Part shown: positions 30,850 through 46,227 of the stretch, one piece after another
Position numbering within the stretch: the stretch's first letter is position 1
How the letters are laid out: the number at the start of each line of letters is the position of its first letter
Source of the DNA: Hydrogenophaga sp.
GTDB lineage: Bacteria; Pseudomonadota; Gammaproteobacteria; Burkholderiales; Burkholderiaceae_C
Assembly: GCF_011390835.1 (NCBI RefSeq)
Contig: NZ_JAABRQ010000003.1
Span: 124,001-188,000 of the forward strand
Direction of reading: 5' to 3'
Length of the DNA stretch: 64,000 nucleotides
Notes under the pieces: generated by a model
What the model was told of the DNA's origin: nothing
The model's input: the letters and a program-made list of their open reading frames with translations, nothing else
The model's database searches: none
Position numbers and translations under genes: made by a program

Positions 30850-31518
30850 TCAGATCAGGCCGATCCAGCAGGCTCGCTGCACCGCCGCGAGCTTGTTGTC
30901 GGTCTTCAGTTTGGACATGGCATTGGCCAGGTGGTAGTTGACCGTGCGCTCCGAGCAGTCCATGCGGGCGGCCGTCTCGCGCGCCGTGAGGCCCTCAAAG
31001 GCCAGGTTGAGGCTTTCCTGTTCCCTAGGGCTCAGGCTCACGCGCTGCTCGGCGATCGCGCGACGCAGCATGGGCCAAATATTGTAGGCCGACCAAGCGA
31101 GCGTCGCAGCCTCGGCGCGGTGAGCGAACGCACGCGCACTGAACATGAAGCATTCGAAGGCACGACCAGCCGGCAAGCTGAACGCGACCCGAACCAAGGT
31201 CTGATGGCCATGCGCAAGCCACAGCAGTCGCCAGCGGCTGGCCGTTTCGAAAGAGGACTTGGAAATCTCCTGCCACGCCACCAGCGGCGCATCACTTTCG
31301 CGCCAGGCAGTACCGAAGTCTTTGCTTTCCGCCAGGGCCTGGGCCGCACCGAGCAGCCGGGGCGGATGAACGGCCAGCACTTCGCGGTCGTCCCGGTCGC
31401 CCAGCGGGTTGGGGCCCAGCACCACCACCGACTCAACACCTTGGTCGCTCAGCGCAGCGACCCAGTCCGCGAGCAGCGCATCAACACCCAGATTGTCAAA
31501 GTTGACAGGCAGTGTCAT
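30850..31518 (-). CDS. LuxR-type HTH regulator divergent from the quorum-sensing kinase
   Basis: A 222-residue protein with a C-terminal LuxR/FixJ HTH (LSPREQESLNLAFEGLTARETAARMDCSERTVNYHLANAMSKLKTDNKLAAVQRA, about 160-215). The N-terminal ~150 residues have autoinducer-domain length, but I do not see the Tyr/Asp-Pro residues expected for acyl-homoserine lactone binding, so this may be a LuxR solo. Only 86 bp separate it from the divergent histidine kinase gene, so the promoters overlap. It may be a target or co-regulator of the adjacent alpha-hydroxyketone system. ATG 31518 has a weak ribosome site. Confidence 0.87.
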   Translation of the reverse strand: MTLPVNFDNLGVDALLADWVAALSDQGVESVVVLGPNPLGDRDDREVLAVHPPRLLGAAQALAESKDFGTAWRESDAPLVAWQEISKSSFETASRWRLLWLAHGHQTLVRVAFSLPAGRAFECFMFSARAFAHRAEAATLAWSAYNIWPMLRRAIAEQRVSLSPREQESLNLAFEGLTARETAARMDCSERTVNYHLANAMSKLKTDNKLAAVQRACWIGLI

Positions 31519-31604
31519 GACCGTTACACCTCAATACACGCACAATTGCCACTTCGCTCAAGCCTTCGGCGCAAGTGGGTAGGAGTTGTCGTTGGAAGGA
31601 GTAC

Positions 31605-32912
31605 ATGGTGCCTTTGGACAGGTTGTGGTTCCACGGCGTGCGAACCCGCTTAGTAGGTTGGTTCAAAGACGAGATTCTGGACGCACCTTTTGAGCCCATT
31701 TTGCACCCTTCTGCCGCTCGGCTTAGGTGGACGGGATTAGCCCTGTTCGCCGGGAATCTGTTCTTCTTCTTGGCGTGGTCTCACTGGATGGAACAACCGT
31801 TCGAGAGTGCGTTGGCACGAACCGTCCTGGCTTTAAGTGGTTCGGTCTTTTTTCTCCGCATAGTTACCCGAGATTTGGGTTCGACCCTCAGCGTTTGGCT
31901 CTTCTCGGCGATTTGCTTGCTGAGCATGCCCGTGTTCTTTTTCTGGATGTATTGGATGAACCATGGCAACCCAGTATGGCTTTCCAGCGTCTGTGCGATG
32001 TTGTTGATCTATTACAACCTGACCGACTGGCGACTGGCGACCCTCGGCAGCATTGTTGGGTTGTTGGTAGGTTGGGTCTTGCATACGTTGTTGGTAGGGT
32101 CTCTCGAGACGCCATCTCCACCTCCCGAAAATGTGCTCGCAGTCGGCTTTGCGTGGGGCTCAGCGATTCTCCTTGGGCTGTCAAGTGCCAATCTGAGACG
32201 CACCAGACTTATCAGCACGCTGAGCACGATGGCCGTGATGGCGCATGAACTGCGCACGCCGCTGGCCACCGTGAACCTGATGGGCGACGTGCTGCGCACG
32301 CTGGCGCGAAACGACGTGCCCGAAGGCAAACGCAAGAAGATCGACGAACTGTCCACCCGCCTGCAAAACCTAGTGCGCAGCATGAACCGGCAGATCGACA
32401 CCCAGATTTCCAACGCACAGCTGCTGCGCCTGCCTCGCGAGAAGTCGCCAGTGATGGCGGGCGATCTGGTGAGCGAGGTGATCAACAACTACCCCTACCG
32501 GTCCACTCGCGAGCGCGACTGCGTGCGCCTGCACATCCAGGAAGACTTCTGTTTCGTAGCCTCGCGGCCGCTTTTCATGCAGGTGGTGGCCAACCTGCTC
32601 AAGAACGCCCTGCACTCGCTGGCCTCGGCCAGCAGCGCGCCCAACCCGGGCGACCTGCGCATCGACGTCGGTATCCACCGCGGGAAGGGACGCATCGCGG
32701 TGTCGGATGACGGCGTGGGTATTCCGACCGAGCAGCAGTCCCGCATCTTTGAACCCTTTTTCTCCACGCAGGCGGGCGCAGGCAATGGCCTGGGCCTGAC
32801 GTTCTGCAAGAACGTGGTGGAGTCCGTGAACGGCACCATCAGCGTGCACTCCGTACCCACCATGGGCGCGGTTTTCATGGTCGACCTGCCGCTGCAAAAA
32901 GACGCTCACTGA
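31605..32912 (+). CDS. Membrane sensor histidine kinase, putative alpha-hydroxyketone receptor (CqsS/LqsS/JqsS-like)
   Basis: ATG 31605 has GGAAGGAG immediately upstream, giving 435 residues. About residues 40-195 hold six or so hydrophobic segments (LALFAGNLFFFLAW, LSVWLFSAICLLSMPVFFFWMYW, LATLGSIVGLLVGWVLHTLLVG, VGFAWGSAILLGLS) with little periplasmic sequence, the layout of CqsS/LqsS. The phospho-acceptor is His214 in VMAHELRTPLATVN. ATP-binding motifs are LLKNALHSLAS, VSDDGVGIP and GAGNGLGLTFCKN. No receiver domain is fused. It is followed by a response regulator and a convergent CqsA-type synthase, which supports the receptor assignment. GC is near 53-55% in the membrane half and 60-68% in the kinase half. 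Confidence 0.85.
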   Translation: MVPLDRLWFHGVRTRLVGWFKDEILDAPFEPILHPSAARLRWTGLALFAGNLFFFLAWSHWMEQPFESALARTVLALSGSVFFLRIVTRDLGSTLSVWLFSAICLLSMPVFFFWMYWMNHGNPVWLSSVCAMLLIYYNLTDWRLATLGSIVGLLVGWVLHTLLVGSLETPSPPPENVLAVGFAWGSAILLGLSSANLRRTRLISTLSTMAVMAHELRTPLATVNLMGDVLRTLARNDVPEGKRKKIDELSTRLQNLVRSMNRQIDTQISNAQLLRLPREKSPVMAGDLVSEVINNYPYRSTRERDCVRLHIQEDFCFVASRPLFMQVVANLLKNALHSLASASSAPNPGDLRIDVGIHRGKGRIAVSDDGVGIPTEQQSRIFEPFFSTQAGAGNGLGLTFCKNVVESVNGTISVHSVPTMGAVFMVDLPLQKDAH

Positions 32913-32950
32913 GCGCGCCGGCAACCAGACCCGACCCGACCCATCTCCCC

Positions 32951-33937
32951 ATGGCACTGACCCTCTCCCTTTTTCACCGACCCGGCAGCGTGCTGTTCCT
33001 GGACGACGACGCCGAGTACCTCGACATGCTGGGCATGGTAATCCCGGCTCACTGGCAGGTCGAGCTGTACTCGCGGCCCGCGGCCTTTGCCCGCCGCATG
33101 CGCGACGAGCCGGCGCGCTGGGAAGCCGACGCCGCGGCCCAGTTGCACATGATCGACCGCTGGCGCCAAGGTCAGCCCCTGCTGCCCCAGGTGCTGCGCT
33201 ACTGGGCCAACCACCCGAAGCGCCACCAGCTGGCCAAGACCTGCGTGGTCGACTACGCAATGCCGGGTACCAACGGCTTGCAGGTGCTTGAGACGCTGAT
33301 CGACTGGCCCGGCACGCGCGTACTGCTAACCGGCCAGGCCGACGAGCAGGTCGCGGTCCAGGCATTCAACCAGGGCCTGATCGATCAGTTCGTGCCCAAA
33401 CAGGCGCGCGACATCACCCGCCTGCTGCTTGGTGCCCTGCGCAAGCTGGGCTATGCACCGCATCCGAGGCTCAACACCATGTGGCGCGCCACGCTGCGGC
33501 CGGCTCAGCAGTCCATGCTGCAAATCCCGTCGGTCGCGCAGGCGCTCCAAGCCTACGCCGAGAAGCACTGGGTCGAGTACGTCGTGCTGGACCAACCGTT
33601 TGGCCTGCTGGGTATGGACGTTGAAGGGCGCTGCCACTGGCTTCAGCTAGAGGCAATGTCCAGCCTGAGCGACTTGGCCGAACTGGCCAGCTCGGCCGGG
33701 CTGGGGCTCGACGCGGTGCGGGCCGTGGAACGGGGCCAGCGGCTCGCGGCCATCGAGCTACACCAGCACCTCGGACTGCAGGGTGCGATCCGCACCGCGC
33801 CGTCCATGTCCATGGGCGATGACGACACGCTGCGCGCAGCGCTCTTCACCCTGGCCCCGGAAGATCTGTCAGCACCGATCTACCCCTACCGCCACTTTCT
33901 GGAGGCGCAGGGCGAGCGGGCCATTCAGGACGATTGA
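32951..33937 (+). CDS. LqsR/JqsR-like response regulator with enlarged receiver domain
   Basis: A 328-residue protein 38 bp after the kinase. The receiver acidic pocket is LFLDDDAEYLDML (Asp18-20), the phospho-acceptor Asp101 in CVVDYAMPGTNG, the conserved Thr in VLLTGQAD and the Lys in FVPKQ. Roughly 80 residues separate the pocket from Asp101, about twice normal, because of an inserted segment (RRMRDEPARWEADAAAQLHMIDRWRQGQ...). Legionella LqsR has, as I recall, its acceptor at Asp108, consistent with the same insertion. The C-terminal ~170 residues match no standard output domain I recognise. The 3' end overlaps the convergent synthase gene by 13 bp. Confidence 0.82.
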   Translation: MALTLSLFHRPGSVLFLDDDAEYLDMLGMVIPAHWQVELYSRPAAFARRMRDEPARWEADAAAQLHMIDRWRQGQPLLPQVLRYWANHPKRHQLAKTCVVDYAMPGTNGLQVLETLIDWPGTRVLLTGQADEQVAVQAFNQGLIDQFVPKQARDITRLLLGALRKLGYAPHPRLNTMWRATLRPAQQSMLQIPSVAQALQAYAEKHWVEYVVLDQPFGLLGMDVEGRCHWLQLEAMSSLSDLAELASSAGLGLDAVRAVERGQRLAAIELHQHLGLQGAIRTAPSMSMGDDDTLRAALFTLAPEDLSAPIYPYRHFLEAQGERAIQDD

Positions 33938-35172
33938 GCGGCGCTAGCGCGGGCGCGTCTGGCGATCGGCCATTCCCAAGGCTTGACCAACGGCGCGATC
34001 TCGCGGGCAACGAGCGCCACATGGGCAAGCTCCGAGTCCGTTAAAGACGAATCCAAGGTCAAACGAACAATGGTTCTGTTACTGGTAGTGGCTGGCGCAC
34101 AAAATACGGCGCCAAAAACTTTTCGCTCCTCCAAACAATCGCGCAGCACCATGGTGTCAGATTCGGTCCCGGACTCCAGAGCAATGATCTGTTCGGTTCC
34201 TTGATGAACCGGGTAGCCCAGATCGGAGAACGACTGTCTCATGACCTTCGAGACATGGTGCAGCCGCTGTCGCTCCGAGTCGCAACCTTGAATTACATCC
34301 AAGGTTGCATTGAGCGCCGCCACTTCGTGTGGCAACAAGCAAGAACTGAAGATGTTCTGGAAGCTGGTACTCAAAATGTAGTTTCGCAAGCCAGTAGGGA
34401 TGTTGAAGAATCCTGCGCGTCCTGCAAAGGCCTTGGCCAGGCTCGCGGTGATGAAGTGAACCCTGTGCGACAAGCCCAATGCCTTGCACAGCCCGGCCCC
34501 ACCAGGCCCATGTGTTCCCAGGGAGTGCGACTCGTCAACCAATATCATGCAGCCCGCCGACTCCGCAATCTCCACCATTTCAACCAAGGGACATACCGCA
34601 CCAGTGGTGCTGTAAACAGAGTCAACAATTACAAGACCTACTCCGTGCTTGCGAACTAGGCGCTGCAGGTGGTTCATGTCGTTGTGTCGGAATGGGTGGA
34701 GATGCGCCCCACCGCGCTTGGCACCTTCCCACAAGGACGCGTGCGCGAGCATATCGATGTAAACCGGCGTCTGTTCGTCGGTGATGCACTGCAAGAGTCC
34801 GACGTTAGCCGAGTAGCCCGACTGGCACAGGATTCCATCTTCTTTGCCGATCCATTGGGCCATTTTTTTTTCAAAGGCTCGTACCGGATGGGTTTCCAGC
34901 AGGAAGCATCCCGACTGGATGACAAACTCGGCGTCCTCCCGGATTGCGGCTGTTTGGGCAGCCACAATTTGAGGATGCCCCGTAAGGCTCAGGTAGTCGT
35001 TTCCGTTCAAGCGCACCGCATTGGGCCCCGGATCAAGTCCATGTACCAAGGATCGACCACCCCATGCACCATTCCAACGCTGGACGAAATCGCGTTCAAT
35101 GCGATCACACAAGTGCGAGGTCATGGCGGGGTCGACCAGCGTGGGGCCCCTGACCAGCTCGAGCGTTTCCAT
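33925..35172 (-). CDS. Alpha-hydroxyketone quorum-sensing autoinducer synthase (CqsA/LqsA/JqsA-type)
   Basis: The track starts at 35235, but ATG 35172 (METLELVRGPTLVDP) is preceded by GAGGAGG, giving 415 residues. It is a PLP enzyme of the alpha-oxoamine synthase family. Features are LNGNDYLSLTGHPQI, the glycine-site region FVIQSGCFLLETHPVRAFE, the PLP-stacking aspartate in VDESHSLGTHGPGGAG, and the Schiff-base Lys in ITASLAKAFAGRAGFF. The last two follow the CqsA form rather than BioF or KBL. CqsA-type enzymes condense acyl-CoA with an amino acid or SAM-derived unit to make diffusible alpha-hydroxyketones. GC is about 45-57% per line, below the neighbouring genes. Confidence 0.87.
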   Translation of the reverse strand: METLELVRGPTLVDPAMTSHLCDRIERDFVQRWNGAWGGRSLVHGLDPGPNAVRLNGNDYLSLTGHPQIVAAQTAAIREDAEFVIQSGCFLLETHPVRAFEKKMAQWIGKEDGILCQSGYSANVGLLQCITDEQTPVYIDMLAHASLWEGAKRGGAHLHPFRHNDMNHLQRLVRKHGVGLVIVDSVYSTTGAVCPLVEMVEIAESAGCMILVDESHSLGTHGPGGAGLCKALGLSHRVHFITASLAKAFAGRAGFFNIPTGLRNYILSTSFQNIFSSCLLPHEVAALNATLDVIQGCDSERQRLHHVSKVMRQSFSDLGYPVHQGTEQIIALESGTESDTMVLRDCLEERKVFGAVFCAPATTSNRTIVRLTLDSSLTDSELAHVALVAREIAPLVKPWEWPIARRARASAAQSS

Positions 35173-35219: not shown

Positions 35220-35342
35220 CCGTGAAAAATTGCACGGGCCCTGTCAGCCTTAGCAGGGTGTGTGAGCCTTAGTATTTAATTTCCGTGCCAGCTTGCCGAT
35301 AACGCGCCTCCAAAACAACGTTTCCGTGAAATAGCGCACAGG
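35220..35342 (-). promoter_or_regulatory. Repeat-bearing promoter region of the autoinducer synthase
   Basis: The 203-bp gap upstream of the synthase start is AT-richer and holds two imperfect direct repeats. CCGTGAAAAATTGCACGGG (from 35220) and CCGTGAAATAGCGCACAGG (from 35324) agree at 15 of 19 positions. Two GCCTTAG heptamers lie 19 bp apart (35247, 35266). These are candidate regulator sites for feedback on signal production. No known consensus was matched. Confidence 0.4.
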
Positions 35343-42933: not shown

Positions 42934-45900
42934 ATGACCCAGCTCTCAGCCGACTACCAGGCCCTGGCCAACTACCGCCCTACCCACAAAGTGCGTTTCG
43001 TCACCGCAGCCAGTCTGTTTGATGGTCACGACGCTGCCATCAACATCATGCGGCGCATCTTGCAAGGCATGGGTGCCGAAGTGATCCACCTGGGCCACAA
43101 CCGCTCGGTGGACGACGTGGTCACGGCTGCCCTGCAGGAAGACGTGCAAGGCATTGCGATCAGCTCCTACCAGGGCGGCCATGTGGAGTACTTCAAGTAC
43201 ATGGTCGACCTGCTGCGCGAGCGCGGTGGCCAGCACATTCAGGTCTTCGGCGGTGGCGGTGGCGTGATCGTGCCAGCCGAAATCCGCGAGCTGCAGGACT
43301 ACGGCGTGGCCCGCATCTACAGTCCCGAAGACGGCCAGCGCATGGGGCTGGCCGGCATGATTGGCGAGATGGTGATGCGCTGCGACCGCGACATCAGCGA
43401 CCACGCCCCCTCCGAACTCGCAGCCATCCAGGGCCATGGCGAGATGCCCTGGCGCGCGCTGGCCCAGCTGATCACCGCCATCGAAAACGCTCAGGCGCAG
43501 CCAGCGCTGATGGACACCTTGCGGACCCACGCGGCAGGTATCCAGACCCCGGTGCTCGGCATCACCGGCACCGGCGGTGCAGGCAAATCGTCGCTGACCG
43601 ACGAACTGATCCGTCGCTTGCGGCTGGACCAGGACGATGCGCTGCGCATCGCCGTGATTTCCATCGACCCCTCGCGCCGCAAGAGCGGCGGCGCCCTGCT
43701 GGGCGACCGCATCCGCATGAACGCCATCACGCCCTGGCAACAGGGCCCGAGGGTCTACATGCGCAGCCTCGCCACGCGAGACACCAGCAGCGAGATCAGC
43801 GCCTCCTTGCCAGACGTGCTGGCAGCCTGCAAGGTGGCCGGCTTTGACCTCATCGTGGTGGAGACTTCGGGCATTGGCCAGGGCGACGCCGCCATCGTGC
43901 CGCATGTGGACATCCCCATGTACGTGATGACGCCCGAGTTCGGCGCGGCCAGCCAGCTGGAGAAGATCGACATGCTCGACTTCGCCGAGTTTGTCGCCAT
44001 CAACAAATTCGACCGCAAAGGGGCGCTGGATGCCCTGCGCGATGTGGCCAAGCAGGTGCAGCGCAACCGCGAAGCCTTCACCGTGATGCCCGACACCATG
44101 CCCGTATTCGGTACCATGGCCGCGCGCTTCAACGACGACGGCGTGACCGCGCTCTACCAGGCGATCAAGGTGCGGCTGCAGGCGCTTGGACTTCCCCTGA
44201 CCGCGGAGCGGCTGCCAGCGGTCAAGGTGCGCCACAGCACCAACCAGACCCCCATCGTGCCGCCTGCACGCACCCGCTACCTGGCCGAGATTTCGGACAC
44301 GGTTCGCGGCTACAAGCGGCGCGCCCGCGCGCAGGCCCAGCTGGCGCGCGAGATCCAGCAGCTGCGCGAAGCCGCGCGCATGCTCGCGGTCGACAAGCCG
44401 AACCGGCCCAAGGCCTCGGAAGCGGCGATCGACCTGGCCCAGGAACGCGAACTGCAGCAGGACAACGACGCGCGCAAACTGCTGACCCAGTGGCCCGACA
44501 TGCAAAAGGCCTACGCCGGCGACGAGTACGTGGTGAAGATCCGCGACAAAGAGATCCGCACCGCACTGACAACGAAATCGCTCTCAGGCACCGTGATCCG
44601 CAAGGTGGCACTGCCGCAGTTTGAGGACCACGGTGAAATCCTCAAGTGGCTGATGCTAGACAACGTGCCGGGCAGTTACCCCTACACCGCGGGCACCTTC
44701 GCCTTCAAGCGCGAAGGCGAGGACCCGACCCGCATGTTTGCCGGTGAAGGCGACGCCTTCCGCACCAACAAGCGCTTCAAGCTGCTCAGCGAAGGCCTTC
44801 CAGCCAAACGCCTGTCCACTGCTTTCGACTCGGTCACGCTCTACGGCAACGACCCCGACCGACGACCGGACATCTACGGCAAGGTGGGCAACTCGGGCGT
44901 GTCGATCGCAACGCTTGACGACATGAAGGTGCTCTACGGGGGTTTCGACCTCTGCCACCCGGCCACCTCGGTCTCCATGACCATCAACGGTCCGGCGCCC
45001 AGCATCCTGGCCATGTTCATGAACACCGCCATCGATCAGAACATCGACAAGTTCAAGACCGATAACGGTCGTGAGCCCACCGACACCGAAGCACAGAAGA
45101 TCAAGGAATGGGTGTTGGCCAATGTGCGCGGCACGGTACAGGCCGACATCCTGAAAGAAGACCAGGGCCAGAACACCTGCATCTTCAGCACAGAGTTCTC
45201 ACTCAAGGTCATGGGCGACATCGCCGAGTACTTCGTGCACCACGATGTGCGCAATTTCTACTCGGTCTCGATCAGTGGCTATCACATCGCCGAAGCCGGA
45301 GCCAATCCGCTCAGCCAGCTCGCGTTCACGCTCAGCAACGGCTTCACCTTTGTGGAGGCCTACCTGGCGCGCGGAATGCACATCGACGACTTTGCGCCCA
45401 ACCTGTCCTTCTTCTTCAGCAACGGCATGGACCCAGAGTACACCGTGCTCGGCCGCGTAGCGCGCCGCATCTGGGCGGTGGCCATGAAAGAGAAGTACGG
45501 TGCCAACGAGCGCAGCCAGAAGCTCAAGTACCACGTGCAGACCAGCGGGCGCAGCCTGCACGCACAAGAGATCCAGTTCAACGACATCCGCACCACGCTG
45601 CAGGCGCTGATTGCCATTTACGACAACTGCAACAGCCTGCACACCAACGCGTTTGACGAGGCCATCACCACACCGACCGAAGACTCGGTTCGCCGCGCTA
45701 TGGCGATCCAGCTCATCATCAACCGCGAATGGGGACTGGCCAAGAATGAGAACCCCAACCAGGGTGCTTTCATCATCGAGGAGCTCACCGAGCTGGTGGA
45801 AGAAGCGGTGCTGGCCGAGTTCGAAAAGATCGCTGACCGCGGTGGCGTGCTGGGTGCGATGGAAACCGGCTACCAGCGCGGCAAGATCCAGGACGAGTCC

Positions 45901-46227
45901 ATGCACTACGAGATGCTGAAGCACACCGGCGAATACCCCATCGTCGGTGTCAACACCTTCCGCAATCCCCACGGCGACCTGACGCCCGAGACCCTGGAGT
46001 TGGCGCGCTCGACCGACGAAGAAAAGCAAAGCCAGTTGAAGCGACTGGCCGACTTCCACGCCACCCATGCCCAGGCGGCGCCGGCCATGCTCGAACGCCT
46101 GAAGCAGGCAGTGATCCACAACCACAATGTGTTCGAAGTGCTGATGGAGGCGGTGCGGGTGTGCTCGCTGGGCCAGATCACCAGCGCATTGTTCGAGGTG
46201 GGCGGGCAGTACCGACGCAATATGTGA
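42934..46227 (+). CDS. icmF: Fused isobutyryl-CoA mutase IcmF
   Basis: A 1097-residue fusion. An N-terminal B12-binding domain ([21 protein letters not shown]) comes first. A MeaB-like GTPase chaperone follows, with Walker [16 protein letters not shown] near residue 210. The C-terminal substrate-binding mutase domain covers about 540-1097. It interconverts isobutyryl- and n-butyryl-CoA with adenosylcobalamin; the GTPase domain guards cofactor loading. It probably links valine breakdown to the butyryl-CoA and beta-oxidation pool used elsewhere in this window. It shares the 22-bp palindrome promoter with PPK2. Confidence 0.95.

Follow-up and report, generated by a model that had tools for sequence, protein, structure and literature searches.

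The closest described relatives of the quorum-sensing locus analysed here are the LqsA/LqsS/LqsR system of Legionella pneumophila, the CqsA/CqsS system of Vibrio and the JqsA/JqsS/JqsR system of Janthinobacterium, with PhcX of Ralstonia as a further relative of LqsR. Virulence, competence and biofilm formation are under the control of LqsR and PhcX and, to our knowledge, it has yet to be explained how an LqsR-type regulator, lacking a DNA-binding domain, exerts its effect. Legionella also has LvbR, a transcription factor linked to LqsS, which we do not know to have been described as an adjacent LuxR. Clusters of lqs genes have already been reported from Polaromonas and others (PMC3376566), and LqsR/PhcX orthologues from 206 Betaproteobacteria, where most of their genes share a cluster with lqsA and lqsS (PMC10653808). 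Here, we analyse a locus of this class in a 64,000-nt stretch of DNA, called the window below, from Hydrogenophaga sp. (assembly GCF_011390835.1, contig NZ_JAABRQ010000003.1, positions 124,001 to 188,000 of the forward strand), where the genes for a pyridoxal phosphate-dependent synthase, a membrane histidine kinase and an LqsR-family response regulator lie next to a divergent luxR-type gene. We find that the LuxR-type protein is a well-supported candidate for a new working part of the Lqs system, in which it would serve as a dedicated output with its own operator.

Like the L. pneumophila system, the Hydrogenophaga locus encodes members of the same three protein families, including a receiver-less kinase and a separate LqsR whose phospho-acceptor Asp lies far into the protein and whose best match is 6sy9; it differs by the absence of hdeD, by a kinase-regulator pair that is convergent with the synthase gene, and by the added divergent luxR and palindromic sites. 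The Vibrio system shares the synthase family, and the sensor region is detectably homologous to that of the kinase beside cqsA, whereas CqsS, being a hybrid kinase, has its own receiver and feeds LuxU/LuxO, and Vibrio has neither an LqsR nor an adjacent LuxR. In Janthinobacterium, a betaproteobacterial synthase, kinase and LqsR-type regulator are likewise adjacent (JqsA being likened by description only), but no LuxR partner or operator is described there (PMC3566124). Ralstonia PhcX is also an LqsR-family regulator that survives without lqsA and lqsS, but it is linked to phcBSRQ (PMC10653808), whereas in Comamonadaceae the regulator remains beside luxR when kinase and synthase are lost. LuxR solos and LuxR proteins of the acyl-homoserine lactone (AHL) type, such as QscR, RhlR and SdiA, share with the locus LuxR a predicted two-domain fold, a GerE helix-turn-helix (HTH) and a palindrome of lux-box shape; unlike them, the locus LuxR has neither a Pfam autoinducer-binding match nor the AHL signature, and is paired with an LqsR-type regulator.

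A complete Lqs-type locus in Hydrogenophaga

The synthase scores 549.9 bits against NCBIfam NF005526 (alpha-hydroxyketone autoinducer synthases; cut-off 428), and remains far under the cut-offs of other families (BioF, 217 with a cut-off of 426; KBL, 174 with a cut-off of 460; serine palmitoyltransferase likewise). Among solved structures, it matches V. cholerae CqsA best (3hqt, E = 5.6e-101), with the next family at E = 1e-36. In a maximum-likelihood (ML) tree of 56 rows, which has long outgroup branches and does not include LqsA and JqsA themselves, the synthase groups with CqsA and other proteobacterial homologues, while E. coli BioF and KBL fall outside (split support 100/99).

The 435-aa kinase carries HisKA and HATPase_c domains, with the phospho-acceptor His214 in MAHELRTPL, and has no Response_reg match in Pfam, which makes it LqsS type and not CqsS type. 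A profile of the sensor alone retrieves the kinase adjoining V. campbellii cqsA (E = 5e-17). In the sensor, a 19-residue hydropathy scan gives only four clear segments, and the count of six helices was made by eye. With a multi-pass membrane sensor, homology to CqsS, HisKA and HATPase_c, the protein belongs among the LqsS/CqsS sensor kinases.

The regulator matches the LqsR structure (PDB 6sy9) in sequence (E = 8e-15, its best solved match), and its AlphaFold2 (AF2) model (predicted local distance difference test, pLDDT, 93) matches the LqsR fold over its full length (E = 1.8e-20). The phospho-acceptor Asp101, at the position near residue 100 that characterizes the LqsR/PhcX family, is invariant in 19 relatives, as are the acidic pair D18/D19, T127 and K150. 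The regulator has no DNA-binding domain. The locus does not belong to Phc quorum sensing, as no relatives of PhcR or PhcQ were found in the window except the kinase core.

These results bear out most of a preliminary description of this DNA, which had named the four genes (their coordinates are confirmed), called the locus complete and of the alpha-hydroxyketone (Lqs/Cqs) type, and supposed a Comamonadaceae-like host. The host is indeed of the genus Hydrogenophaga, within Comamonadaceae; completeness is correct for synthase, sensor and regulator; and the assignment holds for these three core genes by family models, fold, tree and sensor profile. The synthase motifs are present as quoted, the kinase has His214, a multi-pass membrane region and no receiver, the regulator has Asp101, and the tree that had been proposed as a check places the synthase with CqsA and not inside BioF/KBL. 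On sequence grounds, the locus is confirmed as a real, complete, Lqs-type system of known class.

That the class was already known had also been recognized, but the claim that the order luxR/kinase-regulator/convergent synthase matched none known was wrong. The order luxR (-), kinase (+), regulator (+), synthase (-) is kept in 59 of the 60 loci fetched from the genus and family, and recurs in nearly all named Comamonadaceae loci that are intact, among them those of Polaromonas JS666, Tibeticola, Ramlibacter and Caenimonas. A kinase-regulator pair with a convergent synthase, and without this luxR, is common elsewhere in the order Burkholderiales. Because lqs clusters have been published from Polaromonas and some 200 Betaproteobacteria (PMC3376566, PMC10653808) and the order is standard in Comamonadaceae, neither the system class nor the gene order is new.

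Joint retention and co-evolution of LqsR and LuxR

We compared about 150 related loci and counted LqsR, LuxR and the synthase in the same set of 401 sampled genomes of the family. The synthase is present in 36 of these genomes (and in 55 of the 67 genomes of the genus), LqsR in 52 and LuxR in 41, and all 41 genomes with LuxR have LqsR. LuxR is found in 33 of the 36 genomes with the synthase, compared to 8 of the 365 without it (Fisher P = 2.7e-37). The high conservation of luxR had raised the idea of a core gene unrelated to quorum sensing, which the census rules out.

Natural loss variants keep the two regulators together. In the eight genomes with luxR and without the synthase, luxR and lqsR are adjacent and divergent, and there is no kinase at the locus. 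On two Polaromonas plasmids (L330, CP087967.1; L331, NC_008757.1), luxR and lqsR are found without the synthase; one plasmid has a frameshifted kinase gene, and the other has an insertion element in its place. A complete Hydrogenophaga genome (L329:5770-8848) retains luxR-kinase-lqsR and has no synthase; it is possibly a listener-only strain.

We found the linkage of LqsR with LuxR in further architectures. L325 has an lqsR-luxR operon, and L272 a kinase-lqsR-luxR operon with a divergent synthase gene, where the LuxR relative has a Pfam autoinducer-binding domain. In two family genomes (L323:7106-10139 and L324:7673-10690), a luxR with an autoinducer-binding domain is divergent from a luxI-lqsR-like pair, whose LqsR-like regulator has a degenerate receiver with key residues lost, and no kinase lies nearby; these loci are hybrids of AHL and Lqs components. 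The recurrence of the linkage in several architectures suggests that LqsR-family regulators may work through LuxR partners. In keeping with this, deletion of phcX in R. solanacearum is reported to raise the expression of two luxI/R pairs (PMC10653808). It is possible, and we propose it tentatively, that the LqsR family generally controls LuxR-type factors (in hydroxyketone systems, kinase-less luxR-lqsR pairs and AHL luxR/luxI-lqsR loci), so that both quorum-sensing families would share one output module.

Co-evolution was measured as the full partial correlation of pairwise protein distances, for which flanking genes served as controls and 999 permutations were run. Across 32 Hydrogenophaga loci, the strongest within-system partial correlations are between synthase and sensor (0.70), kinase core and LqsR (0.70), and LqsR and LuxR (0.57); across 21 loci of other genera, the corresponding values are 0.51, 0.35 and 0.68. 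The LqsR-LuxR value was reached in 0 of 999 permutations in either set. The correlation between LuxR and the synthase is about zero (-0.08 in Hydrogenophaga and -0.15 in other genera). Of all parts, the sensor domain changes fastest (mean distance 0.47, compared to 0.15 for LuxR), and it does so in step with the synthase, which a diversification of signal types would lead one to expect. Taken as a series, the links match the order expected of a signalling chain, despite the kinase gene that lies between luxR and lqsR.

A different account is that this is an ordinary Lqs system whose LqsR acts independently of LuxR, for example through cyclic di-GMP or other proteins, while LuxR regulates the synthase gene and itself locally, without standing downstream of LqsR. 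LqsR-family regulators do occur without this LuxR, and a degenerate GGDEF-like output domain has been proposed for PhcX/LqsR (PMC10653808). We nevertheless consider this account unlikely, since luxR and lqsR stay together once kinase and synthase are gone, since LqsR is the strongest co-evolution partner of LuxR even though the kinase gene intervenes, and since the two are linked in several architectures. The same three lines of evidence point to a step from LqsR to LuxR, with LuxR as the probable output.

The LuxR-type protein is not classed as an AHL receptor

The LuxR has a Pfam GerE match of 56 bits and no match to PF03472 (Autoind_bind), and the AHL signature W-x3-Y...DP is absent from 21 of 21 orthologues. 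Consequently, it is not classed as an AHL receptor. Its AF2 model (pLDDT 89) predicts the two-domain fold of acyl-signal LuxR proteins, with an autoinducer-binding-like N-domain followed by a GerE HTH; the top Foldseek matches are QscR, RhlR and SdiA (E = 1e-8 to 1e-7), at moderate template modelling (TM) scores of about 0.45-0.53. In a comparison of sequence profiles with AHL-type LuxR proteins, the C-terminal half alone was aligned.

This predicted fold, together with the autoinducer-binding domain of the related protein in the L272 operon, would allow LuxR itself to bind the hydroxyketone, or some other acyl signal, as a receptor inside the cell and in parallel with the kinase; a single signal would then have two readers. 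We judge this improbable: besides the missing AHL signature, LuxR varies little while synthase and sensor diversify jointly, its correlation with the synthase is about zero, and it persists where the synthase is lost. The preliminary description had suggested that a LuxR partner may be new, and the co-occurrence, the co-evolution and the palindromes described below strongly support this suggestion.

A palindromic DNA site accompanies luxR

The loci share a palindrome with the consensus CTGTCA-N4-TGACAG. It occurs upstream of the synthase gene at no more than two mismatches in 57 of the 60 loci, and at no more than one in 49, compared to 0.01 expected from shuffles; its centre lies 70-101 bp from the start codon across loci. 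A second copy lies within luxR, at the same place in nearly all orthologous loci, and this copy is also retained in loci reduced to luxR and lqsR. The luxR codons 4-8 (CCT GTC AAC TTT GAC) are synonymously frozen, with a mean top-codon frequency of 0.98, compared to 0.65 elsewhere; therefore, the constraint at the luxR start acts on the DNA.

None of the 18 synthase loci that lack this luxR has the site upstream of the synthase gene, and in Polaromonas OV174 (L220) both luxR and the site have been lost. Genome-wide, the exact palindrome is present in 60 of 66 Hydrogenophaga genomes, mostly in a few copies each, whereas the reversed control is limited to two genomes, with a single copy in each. 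We fetched 38 of the other sites, and 13 of these lie upstream of hemJ (PF03653, UPF0093), in 13 of 19 genomes. These sites are 105-250 bp upstream of the gene, in 13 Hydrogenophaga genomes (L369, L370, L374, L377, L378, L381, L382, L386, L388, L389, L396, L405 and L406), hinting at quorum control of haem synthesis.

Proposed signalling chain

We consider it probable that the locus carries out Lqs-type alpha-hydroxyketone quorum sensing with the LuxR-type transcription factor as its output. The synthase is predicted from its family to make a long-chain alpha-hydroxyketone. The multi-pass kinase would sense this signal, as its homology and its co-evolution with the synthase suggest, and would control the phosphorylation of the LqsR-family regulator at Asp101, a relay that the conserved residues and the kinase-LqsR correlation argue for. 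The regulator would act on the divergently encoded LuxR, either directly or via an intermediate. LuxR, in turn, may bind the palindromes upstream of the synthase gene and within its own gene start, with which it strictly co-occurs. The positions of the palindromes suggest that the circuit would act back, positively or negatively, both on signal production and on LuxR itself. LuxR would also bind a few sites elsewhere, in relatives most often upstream of hemJ.

Several observations weigh against this scheme. An LqsR-type gene is found without a strict LuxR orthologue in 11 family genomes, indicating that LqsR can act without LuxR; in one of these genomes, G137, a more distant LuxR lies beside a second lqsR. 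Phylogeny is not fully modelled by the distance correlations and their permutation. Both palindromes in the window are imperfect (one and two mismatches), and a motif search of the window alone gave three matches at no more than two mismatches, compared to 2.4 expected, which is chance level. As the window count is unremarkable, the case for the palindrome rests on its conserved position in relatives. Some divergent loci (L165, L181, L195 and L224) retain luxR, yet their synthase gene is preceded by a site that, with 3-5 mismatches, is weak or lost. Finally, outside the window, its genome has a canonical AHL-type LuxR gene that an exact palindrome precedes by 76 bp (L365:1501-2336), with no luxI seen in the 2.7-kb stretch. 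Since an exact site precedes its gene, the AHL-type LuxR could share or own the palindromes.

It is very improbable, even with this site and with CTG-N10-CAG being the shape of lux boxes in general, that a different regulator, for example that AHL-type LuxR, targets the palindromes in place of the locus LuxR, because the site tracks the locus luxR both in the 18 synthase loci and in the luxR-deleted Polaromonas locus, is kept at the luxR start where luxR and lqsR alone remain, and has the AHL-type gene beside no other fetched exact site, save for a weak 30% match.

With LuxR as the output, a dedicated partner protein, natural loss variants and a defined DNA site whose two positions are constant would make the output of hydroxyketone signalling directly testable, in environmental Comamonadaceae that have cultured members (Hydrogenophaga, Polaromonas and Ramlibacter). 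The finding would also connect the worlds of hydroxyketone and AHL signalling.

Locus layout and surroundings

The features of the locus are collected in Table 1. The genes for regulator and synthase converge, with an overlap of 13 bp. The genome assembly that holds the window is 3.67 Mb in size, and its nearest named relative is a Hydrogenophaga metagenome-assembled genome, with a synthase that is 90% identical.

Table 1. Features of the Hydrogenophaga lqs-luxR locus, in window positions
Feature	Position	Strand	Description
luxR	30850..31518	-	222 aa; GerE HTH at residues 161-215; N-domain with predicted autoinducer-binding LuxR fold, without AHL signature
Palindrome O1	31493..31508		TTGTCAAAGTTGACAG, 1 mismatch to CTGTCANNNNTGACAG; within the luxR 5' end, 10 bp past the start codon
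Divergent intergenic region, luxR/kinase	31519..31604		86 bp; from sequence and comparison with relatives
Membrane histidine kinase, LqsS/CqsS-like	31605..32912	+	435 aa; hydrophobic multi-pass N-terminal sensor, HisKA, HATPase_c
LqsR/PhcX-family response regulator	32951..33937	+	328 aa; Asp101; without DNA-binding domain
Alpha-hydroxyketone autoinducer synthase, CqsA/LqsA type	33925..35172	-	415 aa; NF005526, CqsA 3hqt, ML tree
Palindrome O2	35241..35256		CTGTCAGCCTTAGCAG, 2 mismatches; centre about 76 bp upstream of the synthase start codon

Two neighbouring genes were rejected as parts of the system: coaX lies kilobases away in many loci that keep luxR-kinase-regulator-synthase, and the MBL-rhodanese gene is up to several kilobases off or was not found near the locus. 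Carriage by phages was also rejected, as viral contigs have no LuxR relative and only one distant (34%) synthase-like match. On one side of the locus (window positions 5310-29972) lie thiolase-like and FadB-like open reading frames and genes for an acyl-CoA dehydrogenase, a fatty acyl reductase-like protein, a patatin and a wax ester synthase/DGAT. Because acyl-CoA is the substrate of the synthase, these acyl-CoA and lipid genes are possibly relevant to it, or are there by chance. At positions 42934-46227, the window encodes a fused protein with B12-binding, MeaB-like GTPase and acyl-CoA mutase parts (IcmF-like).

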